In this document: one piece after another, positions 2,915 through 62,996 of the stretch
Layout of the letters: every line of letters starts with the position of its first letter
Position numbering within the stretch: position 1 is the stretch's first letter
DNA from: an uncultured Alloprevotella sp.
GTDB lineage: Bacteria > Bacteroidota > Bacteroidia > Bacteroidales > Bacteroidaceae
Reading direction: 5' to 3'
Length of the DNA stretch: 64,000 nucleotides
Assembly (NCBI GenBank): GCA_944322325.1
Contig: CALUOQ010000005.1
Span: forward strand, 1-64,000
Notes under the pieces: generated by a model
Told to the model about the DNA's origin: nothing
What the model saw: the letters and a program-made list of their open reading frames with translations, nothing else
The model's database searches: none
Made by a program: the position numbers and the translations under genes

Positions 2915-2994
2915 ACAAGTGTAGTCCCAGAAAATCCTGTCGTAGTCTTAGGATTTTCTGGGACTACACTTGTAAAAACGGGGACTACACCCGT
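2915..2994 (+). repeat. Hairpin repeat family, copy R1 (type A)
   Basis: Perfect 24-bp inverted arms at 2915-2938 and 2950-2973 begin ACAAGTGTAGTCCCAG and enclose an 11-base loop. A 21-base tail (2974-2994) ends GGGGACTACACCCGT, one-sided as in other copies. It lies in the gap between the convergent yeiH-like and SMR genes, next to copy R2. It may act as a bidirectional terminator. Confidence 0.9.
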
Positions 2995-3063
2995 TTCTTA
3001 TGAACAAAACCTCCGAAAGCCCCGGCGCCGGTTCTCCGTTTCTCCACGCTGCGGTCGTCACGA

Positions 3064-3144
3064 ACAAGTACTACGACAGTTTTTCCTGTCGCAGCGATAG
3101 AAATTTCTGTCGTAGTACTTGTTGGGAACGGGGACTACACTTGT
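3064..3144 (+). repeat. Hairpin repeat family, copy R2 (type B)
   Basis: 16-bp perfect arms ACAAGTACTACGACAG at 3064-3079 and its complement at 3107-3122. The interior contains CTGTCG CAG CGATAG, which can extend the stem with one wobble pair. The tail (3123-3144) ends CGGGGACTACACTTGT. Copy R5 near 18.6 kb is almost exactly the reverse complement of this unit. It occupies the same convergent gap as R1. Confidence 0.9.
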
Positions 3145-3156
3145 CCGCGCCCGACG

Positions 3157-3480
3157 TCACACCATCTTCAACCCCACGACGGAGGCGATGAGCGTCGTGA
3201 CGAAAAACAGGCACGGCAGGGTGGCCGGTTCGTGCAGGAAGGCGATACCCAGCACAACCGTACCTACGGCGCCAATGCCCGTCCACACGGGATAGGCCGT
3301 CCCTATAGGCAGCGTCTGCACCGCCTTGGCCAGCAACACCATACTCAGCATCAGGCTCAGCAGAAAGCCTGCGCCCCATCCGTACCACGCCGCGCCATCG
3401 GCGTCCTTCAGCTTCCCCAGACAGAAAGCAAAGCCCGCCTCGAACAGGCCGGCTACGATCAAAATCAACCAGTGCATCAC
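3157..3480 (-). CDS. Small multidrug resistance family protein, guanidinium exporter (Gdx/SugE) type
   Basis: A four-helix inner-membrane protein of 107 residues, the usual SMR length. Members work as antiparallel dimers that exchange protons for a cation. The essential membrane glutamate is visible in the first helix (VAGLFEAGFA, residue 14). The stretch GTAYPVWTGIGAVGTVV is typical of the Gdx/SugE branch, which exports guanidinium, rather than EmrE. The start could be either of two adjacent ATGs (3480 or 3477). A TATCTTTG promoter box lies 35 bases upstream. I see no obvious guanidine riboswitch in the short leader, so the substrate assignment rests on family resemblance only. Confidence 0.82.
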   Translation of the reverse strand: MMHWLILIVAGLFEAGFAFCLGKLKDADGAAWYGWGAGFLLSLMLSMVLLAKAVQTLPIGTAYPVWTGIGAVGTVVLGIAFLHEPATLPCLFFVTTLIASVVGLKMV

Positions 3481-3514
3481 ATATACTATAATTAAGCGAA
3501 CCGAAAAACTCCGG

Positions 3515-3522
3515 CAAAGATA
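3515..3522 (-). promoter_or_regulatory. Promoter -7 box TATCTTTG for the SMR gene
   Basis: Exact TAnnTTTG on the minus strand, 35 bases before the start at 3480. Confidence 0.65.
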
Positions 3523-3656
3523 CGACCAACGACCGGAGCGAGCAAACCCCGCGCGGGCGAACTGCCGTCCACCCGCGCCCCCGGCGGCTCAACCCCCGCC
3601 GGAAACATTTTCCCGAAAAAAGCCCGACGCAGCTCGTATGGTGCGCAGATTCTTCG

Positions 3657-3664
3657 TACCTTTA
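3657..3664 (+). promoter_or_regulatory. Probable promoter box TACCTTTA for the GH95-type gene
   Basis: Seven of eight matches to TAnnTTTG, 46 bases before the ATG at 3710. Confidence 0.45.
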
Positions 3665-3709
3665 CGCCCGATAACTCTTAATAAGCCGAACAGACGACAA
3701 AAGAAAACC

Positions 3710-6004
3710 ATGAAACGAAGAAACCTCATCAGCGGCACCGCCGCCCTGCTCCTGCTCACCGCCTGCGCCGGCGGACGCGCCACCCTCGCCGAGACCCCCT
3801 CGCCGAGCGACCTGCATTTTGACCGACTCGCCGCCTCGTGGGACGAGGGCCTCCCGCTGGGCAACGCCACCGTAGGCCAGCTCGTCTGGCAACGCGACTC
3901 CACACTGCGCTTCTCGCTGGACCGCGTGGACCTCTGGGACCTGCGGCCCATGGACAGCCTGTCCGGACCCAACTACCGCTTTGCCTGGGTGCGCGAGCAA
4001 GCCGAGAAGAACGACTACCTGCCCGTCCAGAAAAAATTCGACCACCCCTACGACGCCCAAGCCGCACCCGCCAAGATACCCGGCGCGGCGCTGGAGTTCA
4101 GCCCCCGCCTGGGCCGGGCCGTCGCCACACATTTATATATTAACGACGCGCTGGCCGAAGTGAAGTGGGAAAGCGGTGCGACGCTCCGCACCTTTGTCCA
4201 CGCCACCGAACCGGTGGGCTGGTTCGTATTCGACCACCTTCCCGACTCGGTCGACCCGGCCCCGGTCATCGTCGCGCCGCAGTACGCGCTACCCGAAGGC
4301 ACTCCCGAAGGACAGTCCGTACCCGGCAACTCGCTGGTGCGCCTGGGCTATCCGCAGGGCACCGTGCGGCGCACGGCCAACGAAGCCGTCTACCACCAGG
4401 AAGGCTGGGGCGGATTCTCGTACGACGTTGCCGTCCGCTGGGAACGTACGGGCGACCGCCTCGTCGGCGTATGGAGCATCACGTCGTCTACCAGCCCGGA
4501 CCGCGCCGAGGCGGAAACGGCCGACGCCCTCAGCCGCGGCATGGAGGAGGACTACGACTCGCATCAAGACTTCTGGGACAATTACTGGGCGCAGTCGTCC
4601 GTCACACTGCCCGACTCCATCCTGCAAAAGCAGTACGACAACGAGATGTACAAGTTCGGCGCCGCCGCACGCGAACACTCCTACCCCATCTCGCTACAGG
4701 CCGTCTGGACAGCCGACAACGGCCTGCTGCCGCCCTGGAAAGGCGACTACCACCACGACCTCAACACCGAACTGAGCTATTGGCCCGCCTATACGGGCAA
4801 CCACCTGACCGAGGGCCTCGGCTACCTTAACACGCTCTGGGCCCAGCGCGACACGTACAAGCGCTACACCCGCCAATACTTCGGCACCGACGGCATGAAT
4901 GTCCCCGGCGTATGTACGCTGACGGGCGAGCCCATGGGCGGCTGGATACAATATGCCATGTCGCCCACGGTCGGCGCCTGGCTGGCCCACCACTTCTACC
5001 TGCACTGGAAATACTCCGCCGACCCTGAGTTCTTGCGCGACAGGGCCTACCCCTTCCTTAAGGACGTGGCCGTCTACCTCGAACAGATTTCCTACGTCAG
5101 CGACGGCGTGCGCCGACTGCCGCTCAGCTCAAGCCCCGAGATGTTCGACAATTCGCGGAAAGCCTGGTTCGACGACCTGACGAACTTCGACCTGGCCCAG
5201 ATGCGCTTTGCCTTCAGCGCCGCGGCGGAGATGGCCTCTGCACTGGGCCGCAGCGACGAAGCCTCCCACTGGCGCACCGTCGGCGCGCAACTGCCCGACC
5301 TCGACACCGACGCCGACGGCGCCCTGACCATTGCCCCGGGATTTCCCTACGCCGCCTCACACCGCCACTTCTCGCACGCCGTGGCCATCCATCCGCTGGG
5401 CCTGCTCGACTGGAGCCAGGGCGAGGCGGCACAGCGCACCATCCGCGCCACCGTGAAGAAGCTGAAGGACAACGGACCCGCCTGGTGGTGCGGATACTCG
5501 TACAGCTGGTTCGCCTGCCTGGCAGCGCGCGCCTTCGACGGCGATGCGGCCGCACAGGCGCTGCGCACCTTTGCCGAATGTTTCTGCCTGCCCAACACGT
5601 TCCACGCCAACGGTGACCAGACCGCAAGCGGCAAGTCGAACTTCACCTACCGGCCCTTTACGCTCGAGGGCAACTTCGCTTTCGCCGCCGGCGTGCAGGA
5701 GATGCTGCTGCAAAGCCACACGGGCGTGGTACACGTGTTCCCGGCCATCCCCGCCGGCTGGACCGACGTCGCCTTCCGCAACCTGCGCGCACAGGGTGCC
5801 TTCCTCGTGTCCGCCACGAAGTCGGGCGGCCGGCTGACGCAGGTGCAGGTGCGCCCCGAGCAGGGCGGCACGTTGCGCCTCGCCCTACCCGCCGGCAGCA
5901 AGGTAAAGGAAATCAGCGGTGCGACAGCCACGGACACTGCCGACGCCGACATCCTGACCCTACAGACCGAGAAAGGCAAAACCGTCACCCTCACCTTCGA
6001 ATAA
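3710..6004 (+). CDS. Lipoprotein glycoside hydrolase, GH95 type (fucosidase/galactosidase)
   Basis: A 764-residue exported enzyme. The start at 3710 gives a lipoprotein signal peptide ending LLTAC-A, so it is probably lipid-anchored and may be surface-exposed. The N-terminal beta-sandwich begins near LPLGNATVGQLVWQ. An (alpha/alpha)6 barrel follows, with the segment LPPWKGDYHHDLNTELSYWP, close to the sugar-binding stretch of GH95 enzymes. The C-terminal beta domain carries HVFPAIPAGWTDVAF. GH95 enzymes are inverting alpha-1,2-L-fucosidases or alpha-L-galactosidases. Together with the GH29 gene upstream, this suggests fucosylated glycan use. The family call is good; the exact substrate is open. 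Confidence 0.8.
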   Translation: MKRRNLISGTAALLLLTACAGGRATLAETPSPSDLHFDRLAASWDEGLPLGNATVGQLVWQRDSTLRFSLDRVDLWDLRPMDSLSGPNYRFAWVREQAEKNDYLPVQKKFDHPYDAQAAPAKIPGAALEFSPRLGRAVATHLYINDALAEVKWESGATLRTFVHATEPVGWFVFDHLPDSVDPAPVIVAPQYALPEGTPEGQSVPGNSLVRLGYPQGTVRRTANEAVYHQEGWGGFSYDVAVRWERTGDRLVGVWSITSSTSPDRAEAETADALSRGMEEDYDSHQDFWDNYWAQSSVTLPDSILQKQYDNEMYKFGAAAREHSYPISLQAVWTADNGLLPPWKGDYHHDLNTELSYWPAYTGNHLTEGLGYLNTLWAQRDTYKRYTRQYFGTDGMNVPGVCTLTGEPMGGWIQYAMSPTVGAWLAHHFYLHWKYSADPEFLRDRAYPFLKDVAVYLEQISYVSDGVRRLPLSSSPEMFDNSRKAWFDDLTNFDLAQMRFAFSAAAEMASALGRSDEASHWRTVGAQLPDLDTDADGALTIAPGFPYAASHRHFSHAVAIHPLGLLDWSQGEAAQRTIRATVKKLKDNGPAWWCGYSYSWFACLAARAFDGDAAAQALRTFAECFCLPNTFHANGDQTASGKSNFTYRPFTLEGNFAFAAGVQEMLLQSHTGVVHVFPAIPAGWTDVAFRNLRAQGAFLVSATKSGGRLTQVQVRPEQGGTLRLALPAGSKVKEISGATATDTADADILTLQTEKGKTVTLTFE

Positions 6005-6305
6005 GGCGCAGCGGGACAACGCGCCTCGAAGCGGATTCCTGTCGCGGAGATACCGGCTGGCACACCTACACTGGTTATCAGCCGATTAAACGCCACGTTC
6101 GCAACTTTTAACGGCGCGAGCCTTGCCAGTAAGGCAGAAATACCGAACTTTGCACGCGGTTAACATGCCGGGAGGCAGGCTCCCGTTCCCGCCCATCGCT
6201 TGTCCGGGCGTGTTGTGGACAACTCTTGGGAACACCCGCAGCCTGCACATCCATTCAGTCGGTGCGCTTGCATCGCTCGCGACCCCCGGCGCAAAATTGA
6301 TCTGA
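6005..6305. other. Intergenic region between GH95-type and rlpA-like genes
   Basis: No coding sequence supported. It contains short hairpins, e.g. GCCTT/AAGGC near 6121-6136 and CGGGAG/CTCCCG near 6169-6185. A GAACTTTG near 6148-6155 is a poor match to the promoter box. The rlpA-like transcript may start here with a leader of about 150 bases. Confidence 0.4.
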
Positions 6306-6962: not shown

Positions 6963-7038
6963 CCCGCGCGGGCACAGCCCGCACCCCGCCGCGCCGCCCT
7001 CCGCCTGCGAAGCGGCCGCACGGCTTACTCACACCCAC

Positions 7039-7089
7039 GGACAGCCATCCGGTTTCACGACACGCACAAGCCGAACCGGACGGCTGTCC
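7039..7089 (+). terminator. Rho-independent terminator after the rlpA-like gene
   Basis: Arms 7039-7054 and 7074-7089 (GGACAGCC-TCCGGTT and complement, one bulge) are followed by a five-T run at about 7095-7099. This separates the rlpA-like gene from metY. Confidence 0.75.
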
Positions 7090-7144
7090 GCTCCTTTTTG
7101 CCCCGACTACACCAGCAAACATCACCACTAACTTAATACCCACT

Positions 7145-8431: not shown

Positions 8432-8514
8432 TCCCACTGCCGACAGCCCCGTTTGCGCGGAGCGGAAAAACGGCCACGCCCCACCCGGGCAAACAAGCGC
8501 CGCGAGCGTACGAA

Positions 8515-8594
8515 ACAAGTGTAGTCCCAGAAATTTCTATCGCAGCGATAGAAATTTCTGGGACTACACTTGTAAAAACGGGGACTACACTTGT
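8515..8594 (+). repeat. Hairpin repeat family, copy R3 (type A, best hairpin)
   Basis: Perfect 28-bp arms 8515-8542 and 8546-8573 separated by only three bases (CAG), so the unit is almost a complete palindrome. The tail AAAAACGGGGACTACACTTG-T (8574-8594) repeats the arm end, then T5 follows. It sits between convergent metY and ogt and may terminate both transcripts. Confidence 0.93.
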
Positions 8595-14515: not shown

Positions 14516-14595
14516 ACAAGTGTAGTCCCAGAAATTCCTAAGACTACGATAGGAATTTCTGGGACTACACTTGTTCGTATGGGGACTGCATGGGT
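14516..14595 (+). repeat. Hairpin repeat family, copy R4 (type A)
   Basis: Perfect 25-bp arms 14516-14540 and 14550-14574 with a 9-base loop AGACTACGA. The tail is degenerate (only GGGGACT is clear). It lies between the convergent GH2 and efp genes. Confidence 0.88.
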
Positions 14596-15400: not shown

Positions 15401-18349
15401 TCAGTTTGTGCGTTTCTTGGGCGCGATGCTGAACTTGTAAATCACGTGGAAGAGCACGTAGCGCGGCAGTATGTCGTAGTACGTCTCGGTGCGGCCCTGC
15501 GCGTTGATTTCGCTGTCGGCGTAGATTTTTTTAGCCAGGAGGTTGACGCCTTCCACTGCGAAGGCCAGTTTGTTCTTCAGCAGGCTTTTGTCCAACCGGG
15601 CATTCAGTGTCCACAAGTGGTTACCTGCGTCGGTGTCGCCGTAGCCGTAGCGCCGCAGGAAGCTAAAGTCAGCGTTCAGGCTGAAGTCTGCCGGCAGCTT
15701 GACGTTGCCTTCGAGTTTACACTCCAGGTCGAGGGCGCGCACGGCGGTGAAGTCCTTGCGGTCGCCGGTGGCCCGCGTACGGCGAACGCTGACCTGCCCT
15801 TTCAGGCGTCCGCGTCCGCTGGGCATCCAGGTGAGGGCCGCCTGCTGCTCGGTGCGCACGGTATGCACCACGTTGAGGGCCGACGTCTCGGCACCGCTAA
15901 CGAAAGTCAGGTCGCGGCTGTGGTCGTAACTGAGGTAGTTGTACAGCCATAGGACGAACTTCTGCTCGCGATCGAAGGGGATGTTAAGGCTCGTCGTGCT
16001 GCTGAGGTTATAGTTGCCGTCGACGTTGACGGGCTGGGTGGTGCTCACGCCCGTCGCACGGTCGTAGACCTGCTTCATGGCGACGGCATTCTTGACGCGC
16101 CCGTAGCTCAGTTGCGTGTCGAAGCTGACGGAGCGCTTCGGCCAGGTGCGCGCGAACTGCGCACTGACCTGATGGGTGTACGTGTTGGCCAGGCCGGCGT
16201 TGCCCAGCGATACATGGAGCGGGTCGGAGTCGTCGCGTACGTCAACGAGGTAGAGCGCCGAGGGTTGCGCGCCGCTGAGGGCGTAGTTCAGGCTCAGCTT
16301 CATGATTGCGCCGTACTGATCGCCTGGCAGCGGATACCACTGCAGGCCTGCCTGTGGCTCCACGAAGAAGTCACCGCGGTCGACGTGGTAGGGCGCGTCG
16401 CCGCGTTCGTAGTCCATGCGCAGCCGCTGGTGGCGCAGGGGCAGGCGGGCCGACAGCGTAAGCCAGCCGTGGCGGCGCAGGGGTTGCTTGTGGAGGAAGT
16501 GGAGGCCGCCCTGATGGGTGAGCGTGCGTAGCGTGCTGAACCACGAGTTCTGCGCGTCGATGCAGCGCTGCAGGGAGTCGCGCGTCGAGGGCAGCTGGCC
16601 CAGCGGGCGGTCGGCCTCCACGCCCCAGCCGGGCAGGGCGTCGAGGCGGTAGAGGGGGTTCTGCTCCGAGCTGTAGGCATAGTCGAAGCGGTAGTAGGGC
16701 TGCACGTGACCGTACACGCTGTCGTTCTCCACGTAGCGGAAGAAGTAGCGCGCCTCGGCGTAACCCTTGCGGTCGTCCGCCGGCTTGTCGTAGTAGCGGT
16801 TGCGGAAGTCGACGGCCGGGGCGTCGCCGGCGGGGTAGTCCAGCCGGTAGTGGTCGAAGCGCTCGTCGTGGTGGTGCCGCTGGTCGAAGCCGGCGCTGAC
16901 CTCGAGCAGGTCGGGCGCGAAAGCAAAGTGTGCCGTGGCCTTTGCCGAGTGCTTCATGTCGTAACCCGTGAGCAGCCCCGTCTGCTCGGTGCGGCTGGTC
17001 ACGGCGCGGCGGAAGCGCTCCGACATCGGGCGGGCCAAGGCGCTGTCGAGGGCGTCGGGGCCCAAGGCGTCGGGGGCGGTGTTGAAGTTGGCCAGCGCGT
17101 CGGTCGAGGCTTGACGGCGGTGGCTGTAGTTTGCACTGTAGTTGAGATTGAGGTAGCGGCCGTCGCGCGGACGCCACTTGAGGCCGAGGTTCCCCTCGGC
17201 CTCGTCGTCGCTGCGCCGGTTGAAGTGGCGCGAGCGGCTGTAGGCGTTGCCCCCGGCGAGGTAAGTCTCGGTGTGGGTGCGGTGAGCAGCGTCCCAGCTG
17301 GTATGGCGATACCTGAGCGAGGTGTAGAAACTCAAGGGGTCGCCCGGCTCGTAGTTGTAGTTCAGCACGGCCTGCTTTGCGGCCATACGGCCGCTGAGGT
17401 AATTGGCCGCACCGCTGTAGTTGCCTCCCTGTTCGCGCACGGTGTTGAGATTGTTCACGTCGGTCGAGAGCAGGATGCCCTGCCGCCGGTCCATGTACAT
17501 GCCGAACAGGGGCGCCGAGTAGCGCTTCTCGGTGCCGTAGGCCAGGTCGGCGTTGCCCGTCCAGCTACCTTGGTAGTCCGGCTTCAGCTGCACGTCCATC
17601 ACGTAGCTACGGTCGCCCATGTCGCGTCCCATGGTCTTGCTCCGCTCGCCCTCCTTCTCGTACACTTTCACTTTGCCCACCACGTAGGCCGGCAGGTTCT
17701 GCAAGGCCAGCTCGGCGTTGCCGTTGAAGAAGTCCTTCCCCTCGAGCAGGATGTTCTCCACATAGCGTCCGTTGACGTAGATGCGCCCGTTCTCAAGGCG
17801 GGCGCCGGGCAACCGCTCGATGAGGTCGTCGAGCATGGAGCCGTCCGGCAGGTCGAAGGCGTCGGCGTTGTAAATGAGCGTGTCGCCGCGATAGACCATT
17901 TTGATTTTCGTAGCCTTCACCGTCGCCTCGCCCAGCTGACGTGCCAAGCGCTTCAGGGCGAGCTCGCCCGCCTCGAAGTAGCGGTTGCGCCCCCGAAAAC
18001 TCACCTCGATGCGCTTCCAAAGCGTCGTGTAGCCCGTCATCGAGACGCGCAGCAGGTACGCGCCCGGCTGAGGCACCGACAGGGTGAACCGGGCGGGCTG
18101 ATGGTCCTGGTAAGTCAGGAGGGAGCCGCGGCTGAAAGCCTCCGCGCGGTCCACAACCGAACTGTCCGGCCGCAGGAGCTCGACACTGGCGGCGTCGACA
18201 CCCTGGCCCGTCAGCACGTCGACCACCGTACCCCGCACGTAGCCACCCTGGGCGTGCGCGGACAGGGACGTCAGGAGAGCAAGGACAGCGAACAGGAAAC
18301 CGAGGACGCGGGGCGCGACAAGCGACCTATATAATAAATGTGTGTGCAT
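15401..18349 (-). CDS. TonB-dependent receptor-like outer-membrane barrel protein
   Basis: About 982 residues, exported. The start at 18349 (MHTHLLYRS) gives a signal peptide ending SLSAHAQ. Residues about 25-110 resemble a carboxypeptidase-type regulatory beta-sandwich (GGYVRGTVVDVLTGQGVDAA). A plug-like region follows (RGDTLIYNADAF, GSMLDDLIERLPGA, INVNGR-like IYVNGRYVENILL). The rest alternates in beta-barrel fashion and ends in an aromatic-rich strand. It is strongly related to the protein at 35924-38845. No SusD partner is adjacent, so it is not a classic SusC/D glycan importer. Ligand unknown; a TonB box is not clear. Confidence 0.8.
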   Translation of the reverse strand: MHTHLLYRSLVAPRVLGFLFAVLALLTSLSAHAQGGYVRGTVVDVLTGQGVDAASVELLRPDSSVVDRAEAFSRGSLLTYQDHQPARFTLSVPQPGAYLLRVSMTGYTTLWKRIEVSFRGRNRYFEAGELALKRLARQLGEATVKATKIKMVYRGDTLIYNADAFDLPDGSMLDDLIERLPGARLENGRIYVNGRYVENILLEGKDFFNGNAELALQNLPAYVVGKVKVYEKEGERSKTMGRDMGDRSYVMDVQLKPDYQGSWTGNADLAYGTEKRYSAPLFGMYMDRRQGILLSTDVNNLNTVREQGGNYSGAANYLSGRMAAKQAVLNYNYEPGDPLSFYTSLRYRHTSWDAAHRTHTETYLAGGNAYSRSRHFNRRSDDEAEGNLGLKWRPRDGRYLNLNYSANYSHRRQASTDALANFNTAPDALGPDALDSALARPMSERFRRAVTSRTEQTGLLTGYDMKHSAKATAHFAFAPDLLEVSAGFDQRHHHDERFDHYRLDYPAGDAPAVDFRNRYYDKPADDRKGYAEARYFFRYVENDSVYGHVQPYYRFDYAYSSEQNPLYRLDALPGWGVEADRPLGQLPSTRDSLQRCIDAQNSWFSTLRTLTHQGGLHFLHKQPLRRHGWLTLSARLPLRHQRLRMDYERGDAPYHVDRGDFFVEPQAGLQWYPLPGDQYGAIMKLSLNYALSGAQPSALYLVDVRDDSDPLHVSLGNAGLANTYTHQVSAQFARTWPKRSVSFDTQLSYGRVKNAVAMKQVYDRATGVSTTQPVNVDGNYNLSSTTSLNIPFDREQKFVLWLYNYLSYDHSRDLTFVSGAETSALNVVHTVRTEQQAALTWMPSGRGRLKGQVSVRRTRATGDRKDFTAVRALDLECKLEGNVKLPADFSLNADFSFLRRYGYGDTDAGNHLWTLNARLDKSLLKNKLAFAVEGVNLLAKKIYADSEINAQGRTETYYDILPRYVLFHVIYKFSIAPKKRTN

Positions 18350-18553: not shown

Positions 18554-18634
18554 ACAAATGTAGTCCTCGCTCCCAACAAGTACTACGACAGAAATTTCTA
18601 TCGCTGCGACAGGAAAAACTGTCGTAGTACTTGT
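18554..18634 (-). repeat. Hairpin repeat family, copy R5 (type B, inverted)
   Basis: Reverse-complement orientation of R2: tail at 18554-18575, arms ACAAGTACTACGACAG at 18576-18591 and complement at 18619-18634, interior CTATCG CTG CGACAG. Unlike R1-R4 it lies between divergent genes, upstream of the promoter at 18759. Confidence 0.9.
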
Positions 18635-27095: not shown

Positions 27096-27196
27096 ACAAG
27101 TGTAGTCCCGGAAAATCCTATCGTAGTCCCAGAAATTTCTATCGTAGTCCTAGGAATTTCTGGGACTACACTTGTTTTTTCGGGGACTGCGTCAGG
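27096..27196 (+). repeat. Hairpin repeat family, copy R6 (type A, with tandem units)
   Basis: Outer arms ACAAGTGTAGTCCC (27096-27109) and complement (27162-27175) enclose direct repeats of a roughly 21-base word GTAGTCCcaGAAATTTCTATC. This gives an imperfect, longer hairpin. T6 directly follows the right arm, so on the plus strand it has the form of an intrinsic terminator for pflA. The tail is degenerate (CGGGGACTGCG). Confidence 0.85.
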
Positions 27197-35696: not shown

Positions 35697-35776
35697 ACAA
35701 GTACTATGGCAGGAAAAACAAGTACTACGACAGAAAATCCTATCGCTGCGACAGAAGAAACGGGGACTACACTTGT
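35697..35776 (+). repeat. Hairpin repeat family, copy R7 (type B, rearranged)
   Basis: Two left arms in tandem (ACAAGTACTATGGCAGG, then ACAAGTACTACGACAG at 35718-35733) are followed by AAAATCCTATCGCTGCGACAG. The right arm ending GTAGTACTTGT is missing. The tail CGGGGACTACACTTGT (35761-35776) is intact. It appears to be a partly deleted copy. Confidence 0.82.
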
Positions 35777-35835: not shown

Positions 35836-35920
35836 GAATTGACAATTGACAGTTTACAATTGATAATGGACAGCGGAGAATTGTCCATTGTCAACTATCA
35901 ATTGTCCATTATCAACCGTT
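35836..35920. repeat. AATTG-rich inverted repeat downstream of the second barrel gene
   Basis: Repeated words such as CAATTGACAATTGAC and AATTGTCCATTGTC occur here. The 12-bp inverted pair TTGATAATGGAC (35860-35871) / GTCCATTATCAA (35904-35915) can form a stem. The 18-mer TCAATTGTCCATTATCAA (35898-35915) recurs at 39096-39113 on the other side of the neighbouring gene. Confidence 0.7.
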
Positions 35921-35923: not shown

Positions 35924-38845
35924 TTACTTCTTCCTGGGCTTGACGTTCAGGCGGTAGATGGCGTGGAGCATGGCGTAGCGCGGGATGGTGTTGTACCACG
36001 TCTCGGTGCGTCCCTGCCCGTTGAGCGTGCGGCGTATGGTGGAGAGCTGGCCGAGCAGGTCGAACCCGTCGATCATCACGCTGAGCTTCCCTTTCAGGAA
36101 GCGCTTGGCCAGGCGGGCGTTCCACACGACGTCGGTCGTGTTCATCTCCGGGTCCTCATAGCCGCGGCGCGAGTAGACGGTCAGGTCCGTGCTCAACTGA
36201 AAGTCGGCGGGCAAGTCGAGCTTGGCCGTGACGCCGTAGCTGAAGTCGGCGGCGTTGATGGTACGGAAGTCCTCGCGGCGGCTCGTGGCGTGCGTCCAGG
36301 TGGCGTTGGCCTTGGCGCCGAACTGGTACTTGTCAATGCGGTAGTCCAGGCGCAGGCCCTGCGTCAGGTAGAGGTTGTGCACCGTGCTGCGCCGGGCGGC
36401 ATATTCGCCCTCGATGCCGATGTAGTCCACGTTCTGGTTAAACGAGGCGCTGGTGTTCCCGCTGAGTGTCAGGTGGCGGGGCTTGTCCAGGGGCGTGCTG
36501 AAGTTCATGCCGCCGCTGGCGTACCAGTTCCCGTTGACGTTTTCGGGGCGGTAGGTGCGGCCGCCCGTGGTGCGGTCGTAGACGTAGCCCATGGTGACGG
36601 CGTTCTGCGTGATGCCGTAGGCGGCGTTGAGGCCCACGAGGTGCTGCGTGCCGGGCCGGCTCCACTGGTACCAGGTATTGGCCGCGTGCTGCCAGGTCTG
36701 GCGCAGGCCGGGGTTGCCCAACGTGACGGCCAGCGGGTTGCTGTCGTCCACGACGTCGATGTCGTACGACTGCACCGGGGCGTCGCTCTTCAGCGTATAT
36801 TTAAGCCCCCAGCGGTGCATGGCGACGACCTCGCCATCCTTGTCCTTGACGTACCAGGAATTTTTGAGGTCGAACGTGGGGCGGAAGTGGACCACATGGC
36901 GCGTCAGGGCGGTGTCCACCACGGCAGGACGCTCGTAGGCCAGCCGGTTGCGCTCGAAGGTGAGCGGCAGGTTGACCGAGTAACTCCAGAAACTATTCCC
37001 CATAGGACTCTTGTGCAGCTGGAGGCCCACGGAATGCCCGTCGACGCGCTCGGTGGTGTAAAGGCTGTTGCGCCCGTCGAGGGTTTGCTGCGCCCAGTCG
37101 GCCACGGAGGGCAGCACACCGGGCGCGTGCGCCGTACCGGCGCCCCACTCGTCGCCGAGCCAGTCGAGGCGCATCAGGCCGTTACGGTTGCGCGAACGCG
37201 TATTGCCATACTGGTAGTAAGGTTCTATCCACGCGTTCGCATGAGGGAAGGCGTACAGATAGCTGACCGCAGCCTCATAGCTGTAAGCGCGGCGCTTGGT
37301 CGGGGCATACTCGTTGCGGAAGTCGGTCGAGGCCGTGGCGTCCACAGGGTAGTCGTAGAGCTGATGGGTAAAGCGGCGATGATTTTCTTCGTCGTATCCA
37401 CCACTGCCCCGGACGGTAATTTTCTCGAACGAGGAGCCGGGCACGTCAATGACGGCATAGGCATCGAACCTCGTGTTCAGCGTGTGGCCGCCGTAGCGCT
37501 GGTCCGAGCGGTAGCGGTTGAGCGTGGCGGCCAGTACGCGGCTGTCCAGCCCCGGACGGAACAGGCTGTCAAGTACCTCACTGCCCATATATTCGCCGGG
37601 ATCGGTGGCGAAGGTGCCGCTCAGCTGCCCCTCCGTCTGCCGCGTCTTTATATAGGTGAGCCACGGCCGCAGCGAAAGTTTCCATTTCGCCCGGTTGACG
37701 TCCCACGTATGGAAGGTGATGAACGACACGTTGTGCGTGTGGTTGCGGTAGCTCGAGCGGCCGTACGTGTCGCCGCCGCTGAGGAAGTTGACGCTCGTCA
37801 AACGCTGGTCGTAGGCGTCGTCGCTGTGGCGCACCTCGGCGTCACCTTGCAGTTTGAAGCGCTTGTTGCGGTCGTCGACGAGGTAGTTCAGGCCGGCATG
37901 GCGCGTGGTGGTCAGGCCGTTGCCCACCGAAGGCGTCCATTCGCTGCCTTCGCCGGGCCTCACGTACTCATTGACGTTGTTCACCGCGCCGAAGAAGGAC
38001 AGGCGCGAGTGGTTCGTGAAGCGCAGGGCGAAGAGTCGGGCCAAGTAGCGCTCCTCCGTGCCGCCGGCCGCCTCGGCGTTAGTTATCCAGCCGATGGAGT
38101 ACTGTTTTTTCAGCCTGACGTCCATCACCAGTTCTTTGTCGCCCATGTCGTGTCCGACCATCTCGCTGAGCTTGCCCGCCTTGTCGTAAACCTGCACGGT
38201 CTTCACCATGTACGTCGGCAGGTTGTCGAGCAGGATGGAGCGGTCGTTCCGGAAGAAGTCCTCCCCGTTGAGCAGCAGGCTCTCCACCTGGCGTCCGTTC
38301 ACGAGGATGCGTCCGTCGTCCTTCAGCTCCGCGCCCGGCAGCTGGCGGATGAGGGCGTCGAGCATGGAGCCCTCCTGCAGCTGAAAGGCATCGGCGTTGT
38401 ACACCAGCGTGTCGCCCCGGTTGTAAAACTTGATTTTCGTCGCCTTGACCACGGCTTCGCTCAAATTCTGCACCTTGGGGGCACGCGTCAGGTAGACGGG
38501 CGGAATCAGGATGGCCGGCATCCGTCGCGACAGCTTCTTCACCGTGACGGGGACGACTTTCGTCCGATACCCCTCCTTTGTGAAACGCAAGAGAAACGTT
38601 CCGGGCCGGGGCACGCCCAGCCACCAGGCATTCCGCACCTCGGCGATGTTGTTGTCCAGCTCCGACACGTGCGTACCCAGCACGACACTGTCCGTGTCCA
38701 TGAGTTCAATCCTGACGTCGGCAAGCGCCTCGTGCGTAACGTGGTCGCCCACCGTACCGTAAATGAAGTATTCGGGAATCGTCTTCTCCTGCCCCCAAAC
38801 CGCCAGAAAGGCCCACAGGCATCCGCAAAGCAGCAGTCGTTTCAT
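35924..38845 (-). CDS. TonB-dependent receptor-like outer-membrane barrel protein (second paralog)
   Basis: About 973 residues. The start at 38845 gives the signal peptide MKRLLLCGCLWAFLAVWGQ; an in-frame ATG at 38875 is an alternative. A carboxypeptidase-type regulatory domain (about 20-130) precedes a plug-like region (NRGDTLVYNADAFQLQ, GSMLDALIRQLPGAEL, ILVNGRQVESLLLNGEDFF) and a long barrel ending RLNVKPRKK. It shares this architecture with the protein at 15401-18349. No SusD-like gene is adjacent. AATTG repeats flank the gene on both sides. Ligand unknown. Confidence 0.8.
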   Translation of the reverse strand: MKRLLLCGCLWAFLAVWGQEKTIPEYFIYGTVGDHVTHEALADVRIELMDTDSVVLGTHVSELDNNIAEVRNAWWLGVPRPGTFLLRFTKEGYRTKVVPVTVKKLSRRMPAILIPPVYLTRAPKVQNLSEAVVKATKIKFYNRGDTLVYNADAFQLQEGSMLDALIRQLPGAELKDDGRILVNGRQVESLLLNGEDFFRNDRSILLDNLPTYMVKTVQVYDKAGKLSEMVGHDMGDKELVMDVRLKKQYSIGWITNAEAAGGTEERYLARLFALRFTNHSRLSFFGAVNNVNEYVRPGEGSEWTPSVGNGLTTTRHAGLNYLVDDRNKRFKLQGDAEVRHSDDAYDQRLTSVNFLSGGDTYGRSSYRNHTHNVSFITFHTWDVNRAKWKLSLRPWLTYIKTRQTEGQLSGTFATDPGEYMGSEVLDSLFRPGLDSRVLAATLNRYRSDQRYGGHTLNTRFDAYAVIDVPGSSFEKITVRGSGGYDEENHRRFTHQLYDYPVDATASTDFRNEYAPTKRRAYSYEAAVSYLYAFPHANAWIEPYYQYGNTRSRNRNGLMRLDWLGDEWGAGTAHAPGVLPSVADWAQQTLDGRNSLYTTERVDGHSVGLQLHKSPMGNSFWSYSVNLPLTFERNRLAYERPAVVDTALTRHVVHFRPTFDLKNSWYVKDKDGEVVAMHRWGLKYTLKSDAPVQSYDIDVVDDSNPLAVTLGNPGLRQTWQHAANTWYQWSRPGTQHLVGLNAAYGITQNAVTMGYVYDRTTGGRTYRPENVNGNWYASGGMNFSTPLDKPRHLTLSGNTSASFNQNVDYIGIEGEYAARRSTVHNLYLTQGLRLDYRIDKYQFGAKANATWTHATSRREDFRTINAADFSYGVTAKLDLPADFQLSTDLTVYSRRGYEDPEMNTTDVVWNARLAKRFLKGKLSVMIDGFDLLGQLSTIRRTLNGQGRTETWYNTIPRYAMLHAIYRLNVKPRKK

Positions 38846-39060: not shown

Positions 39061-39095
39061 TCGATGCGAATATGCGAGCGGTCAACCGCCCACTG

Positions 39096-39120
39096 TCAAT
39101 TGTCCATTATCAATTGTCCA
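39096..39120. repeat. AATTG-rich repeat, second copy
   Basis: Contains TCAATTGTCCATTATCAA (39096-39113), identical over 18 bases to 35898-35915. It lies seven bases past the stop codon of the 54-aa peptide gene. Confidence 0.7.
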
Positions 39121-39126
39121 TTTCCC

Positions 39127-39291
39127 TCACTTCCACCAATTGTCGGAGTTGTAGCCCACGCTTTGGAACTCGGTGTCATAGGGATTGTCGTCCGGCTGGA
39201 AGGTTTCGCCGCCACCGGCCGAACCACACAGGATTTGTTGGGTTTCCAGCTCAATCACCGTGAGGGCTGGAGCGATATACTGCTTTTTCAT
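39127..39291 (-). CDS. 54-residue peptide of unknown function, end of surface-protein operon
   Basis: An intact 54-codon frame starts three bases after the stop of the cohesin-like gene. It reads MKKQYIAPALTVIELETQQI at the start, then CGSAGGGETFQPDD and an aromatic end (NSDNWWK). It has no Sec signal and no membrane helix. Small proteins with a similar K-x-Y-x-x-P-x-x-x-V-x-E-L start are frequent in Bacteroidales next to secreted proteins, but none has a defined role known to me. The Gly-rich middle might be a cleavage or modification site; this is speculation. The tight spacing and good codon use argue that it is real. Confidence 0.7.
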   Translation of the reverse strand: MKKQYIAPALTVIELETQQILCGSAGGGETFQPDDNPYDTEFQSVGYNSDNWWK

Positions 39292-57345: not shown

Positions 57346-57368
57346 TCACGCCGAATACGCTATTCCAT

Positions 57369-57405: not shown

Positions 57406-57488
57406 ATTTTTGTTGTCCTGGCAAAGTCCATAAGCGTAACAAGACGACAGGAGCGCCCACAAACAACTGCTCTTACGAAATAAAAAAC

Positions 57489-57526
57489 TTGCCGGGAAGT
57501 ACCCCAATGCAGCTACTTCCCGGCAA
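57489..57526 (-). terminator. Terminator after the GH89-GH2 operon
   Basis: Perfect 13-bp arms (57489-57501, 57514-57526). On the minus strand GTTTTTTATTT follows. Confidence 0.85.
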
Positions 57527-57569
57527 ATTAATGCCACTACGATGACCGGACAAACCGATCGTCAAATGC

Positions 57570-60116
57570 TCAACGTATTGTAAGCTGCGTCGTCGCCGAC
57601 TGTAAGCCTGGCGCACTGACTGTCACCGTGCAACTGCCCTGTTGCGCTTCTTTGGCCGCTATGATGGCTAAACACAAGCCATTGAAGGCCGGTCGGTCGG
57701 CGCTACTGAAAGGGACGAACGAGGTTGGATCTCCGTTGTCCGTCGCCCTGAGTCTACCTTTCCCTTTCACGTCGATATGTACGACAGAATTTGCTTCAGG
57801 CACCAGAATGCCCTCGCGGTCCACCACAGAAATCCGCAAAAACGCCAACTCCCCATCGCTTATCGAATTGCGATCCGCGTCAATGCGAAGGGCATAAGGT
57901 TTTCCGGCCGTTTTGACAGAGTCCGTCGCCCAGAATTTTCCATCCCGATAAGCGACAACCTTCAAAGTGCCCGGCCGATAAGTCACCGAGTCCCATTCGA
58001 GCCTGAAATCATCTCCCGGACGCTTCGCCTTTCGCCCACAACTCTTGCCGTTCACAAACACTTCAGCCTCATCGCCCGACGTATAAACCTGTACACGCAC
58101 ACCTTTCCCTTCGCGTCCCGGCCACGTCCAATGCGGCATAACATGCGCCATGGGAAGTTCCGATCGCCACTGGGACTGATAAAGATAATAGCGGTCTTTA
58201 GGAAACCCAGCCAAATCTACAATTCCGAAATAGCTGCTCCGCGAAGGAGGCTGTGTATCGCGCAATTTCTGAAGCTCGGACTCCAGTTCGGCGCGTTTCG
58301 AAGGGTCATTGCGGAAATTAAGCAAATTCGTGTCATCCGAGTTAAAGGGAGTCGGCTCGCCCAGATAGTCAAACCCCGTCCACACGTACTCTCCCAACAA
58401 ATGAGGATAAGTGGCCAACGTCCGGAACTGCGTATCGGGCGTGCATCCCCAACCGGGGAAATTCTCGTCATACGCGCTTAACTGCCATTCCTGCTGGGGA
58501 CCGTCCTTCTGCGGGTAATAGCCGCGAGTGCTCACACAAGACGAGGTTTCTGTTCCCATCGTTGGCATATTTTGGTAACGCGGATCGGCATCCCATTGGG
58601 CCTGCTGACCAAAAAAGTAATTGATTCCCATAAGGTCCAGATTCTGCGCTGCTCCCGAAGCGCGCCCGCCGTCAGGATCATTGTAACCAGCCGTGACAGG
58701 ACGGGGCGGGTCCAACCGGTGTACGATATCCACCAAATGACGCGTAAGGACGCTGTCGCGCTGCTCCATCACCTCATTTCCGATGGACCAGAACACGACA
58801 GACGGATGATTGCGATCGCGACGAACCATTGCCTCAAGGTCGCGTTCATGCCATTCATCGAAAAGTTTGTTGTAGTCCCACTCTCGCTTGCCACGCCGCC
58901 AAGCATCGAAAGCCTCGTCCATCACGAGAAATCCCATTTTGTCAGCAAGCGTAAGCAGTTCGGGCGCCGGTGGATTGTGTGCACACCGGATGGAGTTGCA
59001 CCCCATTTCTCTCAAGATGTCGAATTGACGCTTCAGGGCCGAAAGGTTGAACGCTGCACCAAGAGCCCCCAAGTCATGATGATTGCAAACGCCCTTGATT
59101 TCCACCCGGCGCCCGTTCAGAAAGAATCCTTCCCGAGAAAGTCTGGTCTCGCGGAAACCGAAAGAAGCGAAATACACATCGGGTTCACCGTCCGGTGTAT
59201 CCACCGTCACGCGGGCCACATAACGCTCCGGGGTATCCACGTCCCACAATCGGAAACCTGACATACGCCGTTCGAAGTGGACGCTCTGCTTGCTGCCACC
59301 GTTTATGCTGATTTGCTGAGGTTCAAGACTGGCAATACGCCTGCCCGGACAGTCCAACGAATCGAGCTCGAAAACATCGACTTGCACTTGGGCTTCGGTG
59401 GCCTGCGTGCCGTCGTTGCACACCGTAGCCTCAACCCGCAACTCTGCGGAAGGCTGCTTCAGGTCATAGTCCTTTGTGGTCACGTAGACTCCGTTGTAGT
59501 CGACATGCACCGGCTCGGTCACGCTGAGCCATACATTGCGATAGATTCCCGCACCCGGATACCAACGCGACTCCCAGTGTTCCGTATCAGTGCGTACGGC
59601 TATGACGTTGGCTTGGCCGATTTTGAGATACGGCGTCAGGTCTATGCGAAACGAGCTGTACCCATAGGGCCATCCACCGGCAAGTTGTCCATTAACCCAC
59701 ACCTTGGAGTTGGCCATCACACCGTCAAAATCCAAGAAGAAGCGCTTGCCGTCGTCCTTAGCTGAGGGCGTGAATGTTTTACGGTACCAGCCCAATCCCC
59801 GATAGGGCAGGCGCCCTGTGTTGCCAGCCACATCCATGCGAAACGGGCCAGCTATGGCAAAATCATGCGGTAGCTCTATCGGTTGCCAGTCCGCGTCGCT
59901 CGTAGCCGGGGCTTCGAGAGCGGTCGGCTCTTCACGTCGCGTGCCGTCGGCCTGTAGTCCGTAACGGGCGAATTTCCACTCGCTGTTAAACGAGGTGCGA
60001 CGCATCGCACCCTCCGCAATTAGTCCCGGGCCTGCATCCCGCGAACAAGACTGAAGAGAGAAGCCTACCGCAAGTCCCAACAGCCAATGAGTCAGTCTGT
60101 AAGTGTTGATCGACAT
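57570..60116 (-). CDS. Lipoprotein GH2 glycosidase, probable beta-galactosidase
   Basis: An 848-residue enzyme; the signal peptide ends SLQSC-S, giving a lipoprotein. The domain order matches the GH2 enzyme at 11943, and opening motifs correspond closely (WKFARYGLQADGTRREEP against WRFARYGLQPDGSRRAEP). Acid/base Glu is in WSIGNEVMEQ; the nucleophile is in LLGEYVWTGFDYLGEP. It follows the GH89 gene by 29 bases, so the two enzymes are made together, in keeping with stepwise trimming of one glycan. Confidence 0.87.
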   Translation of the reverse strand: MSINTYRLTHWLLGLAVGFSLQSCSRDAGPGLIAEGAMRRTSFNSEWKFARYGLQADGTRREEPTALEAPATSDADWQPIELPHDFAIAGPFRMDVAGNTGRLPYRGLGWYRKTFTPSAKDDGKRFFLDFDGVMANSKVWVNGQLAGGWPYGYSSFRIDLTPYLKIGQANVIAVRTDTEHWESRWYPGAGIYRNVWLSVTEPVHVDYNGVYVTTKDYDLKQPSAELRVEATVCNDGTQATEAQVQVDVFELDSLDCPGRRIASLEPQQISINGGSKQSVHFERRMSGFRLWDVDTPERYVARVTVDTPDGEPDVYFASFGFRETRLSREGFFLNGRRVEIKGVCNHHDLGALGAAFNLSALKRQFDILREMGCNSIRCAHNPPAPELLTLADKMGFLVMDEAFDAWRRGKREWDYNKLFDEWHERDLEAMVRRDRNHPSVVFWSIGNEVMEQRDSVLTRHLVDIVHRLDPPRPVTAGYNDPDGGRASGAAQNLDLMGINYFFGQQAQWDADPRYQNMPTMGTETSSCVSTRGYYPQKDGPQQEWQLSAYDENFPGWGCTPDTQFRTLATYPHLLGEYVWTGFDYLGEPTPFNSDDTNLLNFRNDPSKRAELESELQKLRDTQPPSRSSYFGIVDLAGFPKDRYYLYQSQWRSELPMAHVMPHWTWPGREGKGVRVQVYTSGDEAEVFVNGKSCGRKAKRPGDDFRLEWDSVTYRPGTLKVVAYRDGKFWATDSVKTAGKPYALRIDADRNSISDGELAFLRISVVDREGILVPEANSVVHIDVKGKGRLRATDNGDPTSFVPFSSADRPAFNGLCLAIIAAKEAQQGSCTVTVSAPGLQSATTQLTIR

Positions 60117-60145
60117 GATACAAATTACTTAAGGTCCTTATAGTC

Positions 60146-62446
60146 CTATTGTCCGGATTGTCCCAGATTCTCGTAGCGCTTCCCTTCAGTTTGTCTACGT
60201 TCGCCAGGCGCTTCGTATTCCTGCGCCAGTTTACGGTATTTTTGAAACATGCGGCGAGTGGTTTCCACTTCGTCGCCCTCCGTAATGGGGGTACGCACCT
60301 TGCCTGTCGTAGCCACATATTGCAGTTCCCAATCAGCCAAACTGTTGTAGAAGTCGTTGGCTCGGAAAGCCTCGCGTCCGTGCGTCAACGGCAAGCCTTC
60401 CTCCTGGTAAGATTCTCCGCTGTCCAAGTGATCTTCTAACATGGCGTAGAACTGCTTCCAACGAGGTAAATAATACCCGTCGATGAGTCCGGCCCACTCT
60501 TTCCAGCCATAGTCAAATATAAGAGGGTCGCCGTCACCACCCCATATCGTGAAAAGTGCCGTGGCGTCGCGCTCGAACAAGTTTTGCTCTTCCGGCGTGG
60601 TTCCCCATCGGCGTGCCTCGGCCAGCCAACGGTCGAAGTTGAACTCCGGTCGGGTACGCAAGAGTACATCGACGTCGTAAAGCATATTCAGGAAGCGGCG
60701 GCTATGCAGCTGGAATGCCGCCTTGTCCCCACGGAGGAAAGCGTCCGCCGCCTGTCGGTGTATGCGCTGTCCCAAGTTGGACATCACTTGACGCTGCACG
60801 TCGACGATATCAAACCGATAGGGAGAGGAGGCGCCCAGCTTGTCGGCGTCTTGAAGCAGGAGTTCTTCGGCACGGATCAGTTCCTCAGGGTCATACGGAA
60901 TAGCGAATCCGGCATTCGGTCCCGATTTCTTCACCCGAAGGGCTGGCCGTGCGGCAATGATAGAGCTGTTCTCCGTTCCGTTCGTTCCCCGCGAGTAAGC
61001 CGTACGGAGCAAAATCTTCCACGCCTCGAAAGCGCTCTCCGAGGCTACCCCGTAACGGCGGCGGGCATAGTGCTTCAACCAGTCGACGACGTCAATACTG
61101 TCGGCATGGAGGGGCATCTCGAAAGCCAAATCGTAATAAACGGGGTTCTGGCCGATAGCCTCCATGAAGAGGCCCGACCCGCATACGTTGGGCGCCCGAC
61201 GGACAGCCCGGGCATACTGGTTGGAAGCCAGCAGCGGAAGGTCGCCGTGCAGGTTGATGCGACCGCCGAAGTTATGCAGGTTTCCCGCCACGACAGGATA
61301 ACCCCAACAGTAGTCGTTCGACGCATTACATTTACTGCCGTCCAGGTCAAGGATGAGCAAATCCGACTTGGGGACGGCCTTGACGATAGGCTCGCGCAGG
61401 CTCCAAGCCTGCATGGCCCACACGGCGTCAGGGTCGAAGTTCCGGAAAAGCCGATGGATAGACTGCCCCACGCTGGTCAGGTACTCCGGCGTATTGATGG
61501 GAGGCGCGCTTTCGTGGAACGGGTCGGCCGCATAAACACCGTGCGCGCCGCCGTAAAGCCGCTTCTGCTCCTCCAGGAAGTCGCGGCCTATGACCTGAAA
61601 CAGCGTATCGGTGGGGTCGAGCTGGGCGACTCCCCTGAAACCGCACCACGAAGGCTGCGTCCGGATGCTGGCACGGGGATATTTTGCCTTCAGCTCGCGC
61701 GGCACGTAGCCCGAGAAGCCCTGCTGGATGGGCTGCATACCCAGCTCCAGCTCACGGTCGATTATCTTTTTCCCCAGCTCGGCGTGGCGGTCTATCCACG
61801 ACTTGGACAAGGGGCCTCCGTAGCTTTGCAAATTCTGCATCCACTGCCATGCGGCATGAGCCGGTCCGGCCAGAAAACCGCGGGCCTCTCCGTCCGTGAA
61901 CCCGTGCTTAACCAGCGTGTTGTACCACACAGCTTCCAGCCCCACCACGGACAGCGGCATATTGACGGAGTTCATCGCCATGTAGTCTATCTCGCGCTGC
62001 CAGCGCTCCCAGTTCCACCAGGCCGCCGTGTAGCTCACCGTGCAATAGTTCATGTAGACGCGATAGCGCCCGCGGATGGTATCGCGCCGCGTCGAGGCAG
62101 GCAGCGGCAGTCTGGCAGGCAAGTCCAGCTGGTCGCCCAGCCAGGAGACGTGCGCATTGCAGTCGTACTTCAGATACTGATTGTAAGCCGTAGCCAGCGC
62201 CACGGGGTTGTTGCCGCGCAGCAGGACTTTCCCCCGCTTGCTCCCGACTTCGTAGACGTCGACGCTGTCTCCCGTAGCCATCAGCTCCAGGCGGAACTGA
62301 TCGCCGTAGCCCGGCGTCACGCGCTCTATCAGGTCGTAAACCGCCCGCACCTGCGGGGCGTGTGTGGCGCACGCCGAGAAGGCTAGCACCATAGGCGCGA
62401 CAAACAGCGCACGCCACAATGTCGAAAATTTCAGGCTCTTTCTCAT
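60146..62446 (-). CDS. Alpha-N-acetylglucosaminidase, GH89
   Basis: A 766-residue lipoprotein (signal ends LAFSAC-A). GH89 enzymes remove terminal alpha-linked GlcNAc; bacterial members act on alpha-1,4-GlcNAc-capped gastric mucin, and the human homologue on heparan sulfate. The TIM-barrel domain shows RVYMNYCTVSYTAAWWNWE, and the acid/base and nucleophile candidates are in AADPFHESAPP and SGLFMEAIGQNPVYYDL. A helical C-terminal domain ends the protein. First gene of the operon with GH2. Family call is very strong. Confidence 0.93.
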   Translation of the reverse strand: MRKSLKFSTLWRALFVAPMVLAFSACATHAPQVRAVYDLIERVTPGYGDQFRLELMATGDSVDVYEVGSKRGKVLLRGNNPVALATAYNQYLKYDCNAHVSWLGDQLDLPARLPLPASTRRDTIRGRYRVYMNYCTVSYTAAWWNWERWQREIDYMAMNSVNMPLSVVGLEAVWYNTLVKHGFTDGEARGFLAGPAHAAWQWMQNLQSYGGPLSKSWIDRHAELGKKIIDRELELGMQPIQQGFSGYVPRELKAKYPRASIRTQPSWCGFRGVAQLDPTDTLFQVIGRDFLEEQKRLYGGAHGVYAADPFHESAPPINTPEYLTSVGQSIHRLFRNFDPDAVWAMQAWSLREPIVKAVPKSDLLILDLDGSKCNASNDYCWGYPVVAGNLHNFGGRINLHGDLPLLASNQYARAVRRAPNVCGSGLFMEAIGQNPVYYDLAFEMPLHADSIDVVDWLKHYARRRYGVASESAFEAWKILLRTAYSRGTNGTENSSIIAARPALRVKKSGPNAGFAIPYDPEELIRAEELLLQDADKLGASSPYRFDIVDVQRQVMSNLGQRIHRQAADAFLRGDKAAFQLHSRRFLNMLYDVDVLLRTRPEFNFDRWLAEARRWGTTPEEQNLFERDATALFTIWGGDGDPLIFDYGWKEWAGLIDGYYLPRWKQFYAMLEDHLDSGESYQEEGLPLTHGREAFRANDFYNSLADWELQYVATTGKVRTPITEGDEVETTRRMFQKYRKLAQEYEAPGERRQTEGKRYENLGQSGQ

Positions 62447-62996
62447 CGTTTTATTATAGTTAGAGAGGTTTTACTGCCGTCGGGGGCTTCGCGGTCTCCG
62501 CTCCACCCGTTTACACTGAAAGCCGACCGCGACGTCAGCCCGTCGCTTGCAAAATAAGCAAGTTTTTCGCAAACACTGCGCAACGATACCCACAAAAAAC
62601 GCACGTTCCTCCAAACATCGCGCAAAAGCCACCCCACGGATGAGATGGCCGTGCCTTGCACGCACATGGGGGCGGCCATGACGACGCGCCCCGCGTGCAC
62701 GCCCCCGACTGCCGTAGATGAAGCCGGCCAAACTACGGCAGGGAGAACAAGTGTAGTCCCCGTTTTTACAAGTACTACGATAGAAAATTCTATCGTAGTA
62801 CTTGTAAAAACTGTCGTAGTACTTGTTTCGCCCCAGTCTGCCATAGACTTGCGAAGGCGCACCGCCAAGAAAAATGAAGACGGTCTCCCCTACGCCTTAC
62901 GCCGTTAAATTCTGAAAAATCAGCGCGTTCGTCTTCATTTTTTCGCACTTTTGCGGCCGGACAGGGGCCTTAGTGTTCCGCTCGAGTTCTTTCACA
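62447..62996. other. Divergent region between GH89 and the last gene
   Basis: Contains repeat R8 (62747-62826). Near-matches to the promoter box exist for both directions but none is exact. No gene supported. Confidence 0.5.
62747..62826 (-). repeat. Hairpin repeat family, copy R8 (type B, tails on both sides)
   Basis: 18-bp perfect arms (ACAAGTACTACGATAGAA at 62768-62785, complement at 62788-62805). An A-type tail ACAAGTGTAGTCCCCG lies on the left and a B-type tail AAAAACTGTCGTAGTACTTG-T (62806-62826) on the right. This is the only copy with tails at both ends. It lies between divergent genes. Confidence 0.9.

Follow-up and report, generated by a model that had tools for sequence, protein, structure and literature searches.

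The 64,000-nucleotide stretch analysed here (the window) comprises positions 1-64000 of contig C5 (CALUOQ010000005.1) of an uncultured Alloprevotella sp. (assembly GCA_944322325.1; G000 below), whose genome of 2.72 Mb is assembled in 33 contigs and is 90.7% complete. The window carries eight copies, R1 to R8, of a dispersed repeat that consists of an array of short words, as follows.

R1, 2915..2994, no strand assigned: hairpin of three words (2915-2973) and a fourth word, partly decayed (2981-2994).
R2, 3064..3144, no strand assigned: hairpin with ACTAC-type ends (3064-3122) and a fourth word (3131-3144).
R3, 8515..8594, no strand assigned: typical four-word array with perfect arms of 28 bp, a loop of 3 bases and a tail word.
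R4, 14516..14574, no strand assigned: hairpin array of three words, then a decayed word at ~14581-14595 (by eye).
R5, 18554..18634, no strand assigned: degraded outer word, then a hairpin of three words.
R6, 27096..27175, no strand assigned: four words in a clear 21-bp tandem register, with GTAGTCC at 27102, 27123 and 27144.
R7, 35697..35776, no strand assigned: four words without a long hairpin.
R8, 62747..62826, no strand assigned: four words, with a stem of 23 bp and a loop of 4 bases.

The positions and ends of all eight copies were checked and agree with those given in an initial reading of the letters alone (the sequence-only reading), as do the perfect 28-bp arms and 3-base loop of R3. 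RNA folding predicted strong hairpins in seven of the eight copies (z -5.9 to -12.8, with R3 at -12.8), while R7 scored z -0.25. The two nearest copies of R3, at G000:C3:172783 and C2:168295, are 98% identical to it over 80 bp. An Rfam scan of the window gave no match at the gathering score; below that threshold, five microRNA-type hairpin scores fell on arrays and one match to a bacterial small RNA fell elsewhere.

The window holds a small part of the family. Genome-wide, ACAAGTGTAGTCCC had 102 exact matches (46+56) and ACAAGTACTACGAYAG had 206 (113+93), with none for the reversed control of either. The DNA examined from this genome amounted to 505 kb, in stretches picked around most of the listed end-word positions, with the later contigs under-sampled. 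It contained 98 elements, counted as 105 end-word clusters minus six in-gene chance matches of a single word and one double count. Contigs C1-C4 (1.13 Mb) hold at least 73 elements, and extrapolation to the whole genome gives roughly 175. A self-comparison of the segments, shifted by 14 to 33 bases in steps of one, gave 60 clusters at lag 21 and 0-3 at each other lag. Fifty-three of the 60 were within elements and seven outside, one of these directly adjoining an element. Among 80 complete arrays, four words were present in 57, three in 11, five in 10 and six in 2, a modal number that argues for a fixed footprint. An unbroken stem of at least 14 bp, formed by inverted words, was present in 48 of the 80, and in 23 the stem was shorter than 10 bp. 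What is constant in the family is the array itself, in which words, usually four, follow one another in an exact 21-bp register and are joined by A-tract linkers; the hairpin is not invariant.

In our reading, the 21-bp unit can be written as X'-N5-X, that is, three pentamers, plus a 6-bp linker. X is mainly GAYAG, CCCAG, CTTAG, CCCCG or ACTTG, and N5 is GTAGT (or its complement ACTAC) or a near-palindrome GYWRC. The internal linkers match GRAWWTYC, and the TpA step was absent from 122 of 122 such linkers, even though many halves end in T and many begin with A (chi-square p 7e-7). The linkers are therefore A-tracts at intervals of two helical turns, an arrangement that suggests recognition at the level of the DNA. 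The GC content drops from ~0.6 to 0.41-0.43 across the central 80 bp only. No common module was found in the flanks of these arrays; the best flanking 12-mer occurred at 9 of 81 and is part of a second, GC-rich repeat (AGGCACGCCCGC / GGGCGTGCCTGCGGCGCGCCCCTAC) that adjoins these nine, for example in L004, L005 and L014 near 1580-1640.

At this scale, several features proposed in the sequence-only reading take a different form. The family of eight holds for the window and is part of a far larger set. The one-sided tail exists, not as a separate part but as a further word of the 21-bp register, and the hairpin, while a trait of most window copies, is lacking in R7 and in the 23 arrays with short stems. 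Strong selection on structure was suggested; something is indeed kept, and it is the register of words more than the hairpin. An intergenic location applies to 8 of 8 window copies by gene calls, which around the elements rest on a simple coding model and are approximate, but elsewhere at least 9 of the 98 elements lie inside genes. That the family has no named match is borne out by the Rfam result and by a 14-mer of its words, for which no match was found in the literature searched.

The same 14-mer was absent from all 36 other genomes of the genus that were searched and from a further 24 of the order. With an 80-nt array as the query, weak matches were obtained in 8 of the 57 other genomes of the genus. 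Eight loci in relatives were read: those of G030, G064, G065 and G074 were an array or part of one, spelled in other words, and the rest resembled chance in-gene matches. G030 is the closest relative by IspG among 30 genomes retrieved (0.79 identity). It has 125 exact matches to TGTCAGCCGTCC (control 1), and in a sample of 610 kb, from contigs picked for word matches, 65 clusters were present at lag 21 and 0-3 at the other lags. The G030 word with its linker occurred in 1 of 58 genus genomes, and in the fetched DNA of both species the end words of G000 and G030 were mutually exclusive. One loop word, GTCGCWGCGA, was present in both (57 in G000 and 21 in G030, fetched DNA), which argues for common descent.

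Further dialects were found in other relatives. In 366 kb of G019, there were 31 clusters at lag 21, 10 at lag 22 and 0-2 at the others, with words such as CTGCAGTGCTTGCAG plus at least two further vocabularies. G065 had six lag-21 clusters in 93 kb, one of which is a coding repeat, and its words differed again. Two vocabularies, TAACGAG and CTCAGAG, were seen in this genome (L326 near 12876 and L327 near 8681), the second of which also occurs in G064 (L093, L283); a dialect change is possibly in progress there. G015 and G016 have one dialect in common, with 50 and 44 matches of a 13-mer (control 0). In these two genomes (L376-L415), the 21-bp arrays lie within a longer unit of ~200-250 bp whose ends, TATGGCAAACCGTTAA... 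and ...GTGCCATATAG, are conserved, and which resembles a miniature inverted-repeat transposable element (MITE) with a brick core. For G012, the linker CTTTAAAG was seen in two arrays, with 38 matches of the reversed control pattern, and lag 21 was not prominent by number (three clusters, against four at lag 16). The complete genome G004 had no lag-21 cluster in 80 kb.

A linker-pair pattern searched in 201 genomes of the family matched 146 times in G000, 59 in G065, 55 in G193, 16 in G172 and 0-7 times in the remainder, with reversed controls of 0-3 except in G012. The matches in G172, which belongs to another genus, were chained at 21 bp, which suggests that the same array architecture may be present there. 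In G193 (L311, L314 and others) and G179, of another genus of the family, near-identical repeats of GAAATTTCGGGGCCGGAACGCGAAATTCC were observed, with 55 and 7 linker-pair matches, respectively. Among those listed, the G193 matches were mostly near-identical copies, and lag 21 was not prominent; the G193 repeats may be an ordinary MITE.

The places of the arrays were then compared between G000 and G030. For 11 of 97 elements, both flanks aligned to one G030 stretch, and in 11 of 11 an array in the G030 dialect was seen by eye, in flanking DNA that is ~69-88% identical between the genomes. Of 335 gaps in G000, 51 were comparable: 43 had an array in neither genome, 8 in both, and none was discordant. 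With gaps restricted to those of at least 80 bp in both genomes, the corresponding numbers were 11, 8 and 0. The probability of the eight-fold concordance under independence is 1/C(51,8), or ~2e-9 (calculated by hand). The eight loci of the gap count belong to the 11 flank-anchored loci. As 10 of the 11 G030 stretches hold further word matches elsewhere, they were selected independently of the compared site, and the concordance there was not made by the choice of stretches.

One of the common places, and the clearest single case, lies inside a gene. A match to ispG was present in 56 genomes, and among the 30 orthologs retrieved, the insert was found in G000 and G030 only, at one site. The G030 insert is one word longer than that of G000 and is written in the G030 dialect. 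The other 28 orthologs are empty, and are too diverged for base-level alignment at the insert site, where the target site duplication expected of a MITE would be sought.

Conservation between two genomes with one dialect was examined in G015 and G016, where stretches in both were picked around arrays and the comparison was anchored on the flanks. Anchoring succeeded for five of 27 G015 elements, each of which was present in both genomes. Across these loci the words were identical at 204 of 228 positions, the linkers at 34 of 56 and the surroundings at 806 of 1106; since the words were placed by reference to G015, these identities carry some bias. The words are thus better conserved than the linkers or the surroundings. 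One word seems, by eye, to be inverted in the alignment of L380 with L396.

Since G000 and G030 have the same places with different words, the common places are old and the spelling was rewritten in at least one lineage. The recent spread proposed in the sequence-only reading is contradicted at the compared sites, where no gain or loss separates two genomes with flanks so far diverged. At such a distance neutral relics would be expected to lose both register and words, which suggests that something recognises or copies the arrays.

The coding model places 88 of the 98 elements between genes and 9 within them; the remaining one overlaps a gene end. A further element, C9:45962, was called intergenic; a spanning frame has 96 codons before it and 316 after it, and it is probably a tenth in-gene copy. 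The words rarely contain stops, and 58 open frames run through arrays called intergenic; as open frames often cross arrays by chance, an open frame by itself does not indicate coding. The host genes of the in-gene copies encode IspG (GcpE), a BirA-type ligase, a 4Fe-4S protein, an HU-LysM protein, a LysM protein, a FolK-GNAT protein, an alpha-2-macroglobulin-like protein and two proteins without a Pfam match. The reading frame is ACA AGT in eight of the nine copies, giving peptides such as TSTTIENPIATTENS, and IspG with its insert scores above the NCBIfam equivalog cut-off (931 against 886 bits). In gaps of 120-1200 bp, arrays were present in 22 of 32 divergent, 13 of 20 convergent, 28 of 47 -- and 19 of 33 ++ gaps, in a sample picked around arrays; this about equal share in all orientations speaks against a role as terminators only. 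Arrays were often seen, by eye, ~20-100 bp past a stop codon.

Within the window, a small multidrug resistance (SMR) family transporter gene at 3157-3477 ends ~12 bases from R2. Two large minus-strand proteins are encoded at 15401-18349 and 35924-38845, in genes that have the repeat families D3, D6 and D7 in common. An array lies just outside each, R5 upstream of 15401-18349 and R7 on the stop-codon side of 35924-38845. AT-rich repeats of the TCAATTGTCCATTATCAA type (family D5), at 35862-35915 and 39081-39127, are unrelated to the arrays.

The explanation that we favour, tentatively and at somewhat less than even odds, is that the arrays are recognition sites of a sequence-specific trans-acting factor whose specificity drifts, as in the dialects of DNA uptake sequences (DUS). 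Such a factor would fit the constant array size, the A-tract rule, the privacy of the dialects and the stability of place. The usual four 21-bp words, each of about two DNA turns, would form a site read by a factor encoded in the genome, presumably a protein that reads the DNA. The arrays would have been inserted long ago, in genes too, and the compared ones would have stayed put since. As the specificity of the factor drifted, selection or a copying drive, rather than chance, would respell the words at all sites, giving one dialect per species. The benefit might lie in uptake, chromosome organisation or self-marking. A bolder form of this explanation, which we hold to be rather unlikely, is a chromosome-wide, species-specific code in which ~175 long-lived arrays per genome are read by one fast-evolving factor and are respelled in concert at all sites, including the one in ispG, as that factor changes; sister species would then have the same map in different languages.

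Several observations weigh against a drifting recognition factor. No DNA-binding partner was found for the arrays. Linker pairs within an array were complementary in 19 of 61 cases, against 10.4 +- 2.8 by chance, an excess that hints at correction or selection at the level of the hairpin. Common tracts of at least 40 bp were present in 38 pairs of loci, against 7-19 in Markov models of orders 8-10, and tracts of at least 59 bp in 4 pairs against 0-2, which hints at some copying; for tracts of at least 30 bp (161 against 104-173) the model of order 10 was not exceeded. To the eye, words at the common places differ in order and number between G000 and G030, so that the arrays have been reworked and not only point-mutated. 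The sample of compared places is also small: 10 of 10 loci would still be compatible with up to about a quarter of the G000 sites lacking an array in G030 (95% bound, by hand), and arrays present in G030 only were sought just in gaps near G000 arrays (0 of 43). The five of five common loci of G015 and G016 say little on gain or loss, as the stretches were chosen around arrays, and the comparison of G000 with the more distant G019 gave 27 syntenic gaps with no element on either side and was uninformative.

The main and serious rival is that the arrays are selfish palindromic repeats, of the type of Rickettsia palindromic elements (RPE) or MITEs, that entered an ancestral genome and have since been made uniform, genome by genome, through ectopic gene conversion or copy-and-paste (concerted evolution, molecular drive), without a function for the host. 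We regard this as a real possibility, if a doubtful one. It would account for the excess of long common tracts and of complementary linker pairs, for the longer repeated unit with conserved ends in G015 and G016, for the mostly near-identical listed copies among the 55 matches of G193, and for the copies in genes, as reported for RPE. It fits less well with the lack of gains or losses at the 51 syntenic gaps, with arrays in G000 that have no common flanking module, and with the fixed modal length; the dialects, moreover, have only short runs in common, which would seem to offer little for homologous recombination.

An improbable alternative is that the words are DUS of natural transformation, spread and kept by uptake-biased recombination, with a receptor change shifting the dialect. 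Private dialects, inverted pairing, intergenic bias and tolerance within genes do resemble DUS and the uptake signal sequences (USS); a four-word array in a fixed 21-bp register is not known as a DUS feature. Dialects of DUS are described for Neisseriaceae in the excerpted text of PMC3630211, where copies number in the thousands, against about one array per 15 kb here.

It is very unlikely that the arrays act as RNA hairpins, terminating transcription or stabilising mRNA: stems of at least 14 bp in 48 arrays, seven window copies with z below -5 and the frequent position after stop codons would suit such a role, whereas the 23 arrays without a 10-bp stem, an R7 that folds no better than shuffles, and arrays as frequent in divergent as in convergent gaps would not, and RNA structure calls for neither an exact 21-bp register nor private words. 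Intrinsic terminators were rejected, there being neither enrichment in convergent gaps nor rarity in divergent ones, and no orientation bias, in the sample picked around arrays.

If a drifting recognition factor does underlie the arrays, its identification would make the factor-dialect pairs a natural series of variants in specificity. The usual view of dispersed bacterial repeats is that of mobile parasites, gained and lost over time; within the comparisons made here, the places are constant and the sequence changes. How many dispersed sites evolve in concert, whether by drive, by gene conversion or through co-evolution with a protein that binds them, is a long-standing question that this genus, with its dozens of sequenced species, makes testable, and in the IspG loop a process at the DNA level is seen to rewrite amino acids.

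Among the known systems, the arrays are like repetitive extragenic palindromic (REP) sequences and bacterial interspersed mosaic elements (BIME), with their REP-associated tyrosine transposases (RAYT), in being intergenic palindromes with inverted pairs and species-specific families (excerpted text of PMC3733652). They are unlike them in their in-register multi-word arrays, in the compared places common with G030, and in lacking a GTAG/CGTC foot across dialects: GTAG stands in the word centre, within the paired arm rather than as an unpaired tag at the foot of a 20-40 bp palindrome, and the main G030 word has AGCCG there. PF01797 (Y1_Tnp, the RAYT/IS200-type family), the one transposase family searched, had no match in the 90.7% complete G000 assembly, against matches in 5 of 14 control genomes. 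With no such match and no tag common across dialects, REP/RAYT was rejected, and the RAYT mobilisation suggested in the sequence-only reading is not supported.

RPE are alike in being palindromic units inserted in frame into genes. In-frame insertion into otherwise intact open reading frames was found here for at least 9 of 98 elements, with the caveat that open frames through arrays are common in gaps as well. RPE are ~150 bp long and fall into sequence families (PMC10969869, in the text excerpted), unlike the units here, which are 58-122 bp, mostly intergenic and spelled with words that differ between two species at common places. A single family across related species was not found, the 14-mer being confined to G000 among the genus genomes searched and another dialect standing at the G030 places.

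The BrickBuilt minisatellite MITE of Porphyromonas gingivalis is also dispersed, with tandem short units (23 nt), set degenerate positions and non-identical loci; in the excerpted text of PMC4596501 it has a leader and tail with terminal inverted repeats, 19 copies and an always intergenic location. The G000 arrays have 21-bp units and are sometimes in genes, and neither terminal inverted repeats nor leader or tail modules were found in them, although longer modules exist in G015 and G016. The early suggestion of a short MITE is weakened for G000 by the missing flanking module; those two genomes do carry their arrays in a MITE-like unit.

RPE, BrickBuilt and the GTAG/CGTC REPs each fail a defining feature tested here; DUS do not. 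Among the matches listed in the open literature, as far as their excerpted text goes, there was no report of in-register word arrays that are fixed in place and change dialect between species, which argues weakly for novelty. The DUS of Neisseriaceae and the USS of Pasteurellaceae differ from the arrays, which are known here from sequence alone, in that here the words are chained in a 21-bp register, at far fewer sites and in a Bacteroidales-type host; like the arrays, they are short dispersed words, private to a species, with another dialect in its relatives, as was found for G000 and G030.

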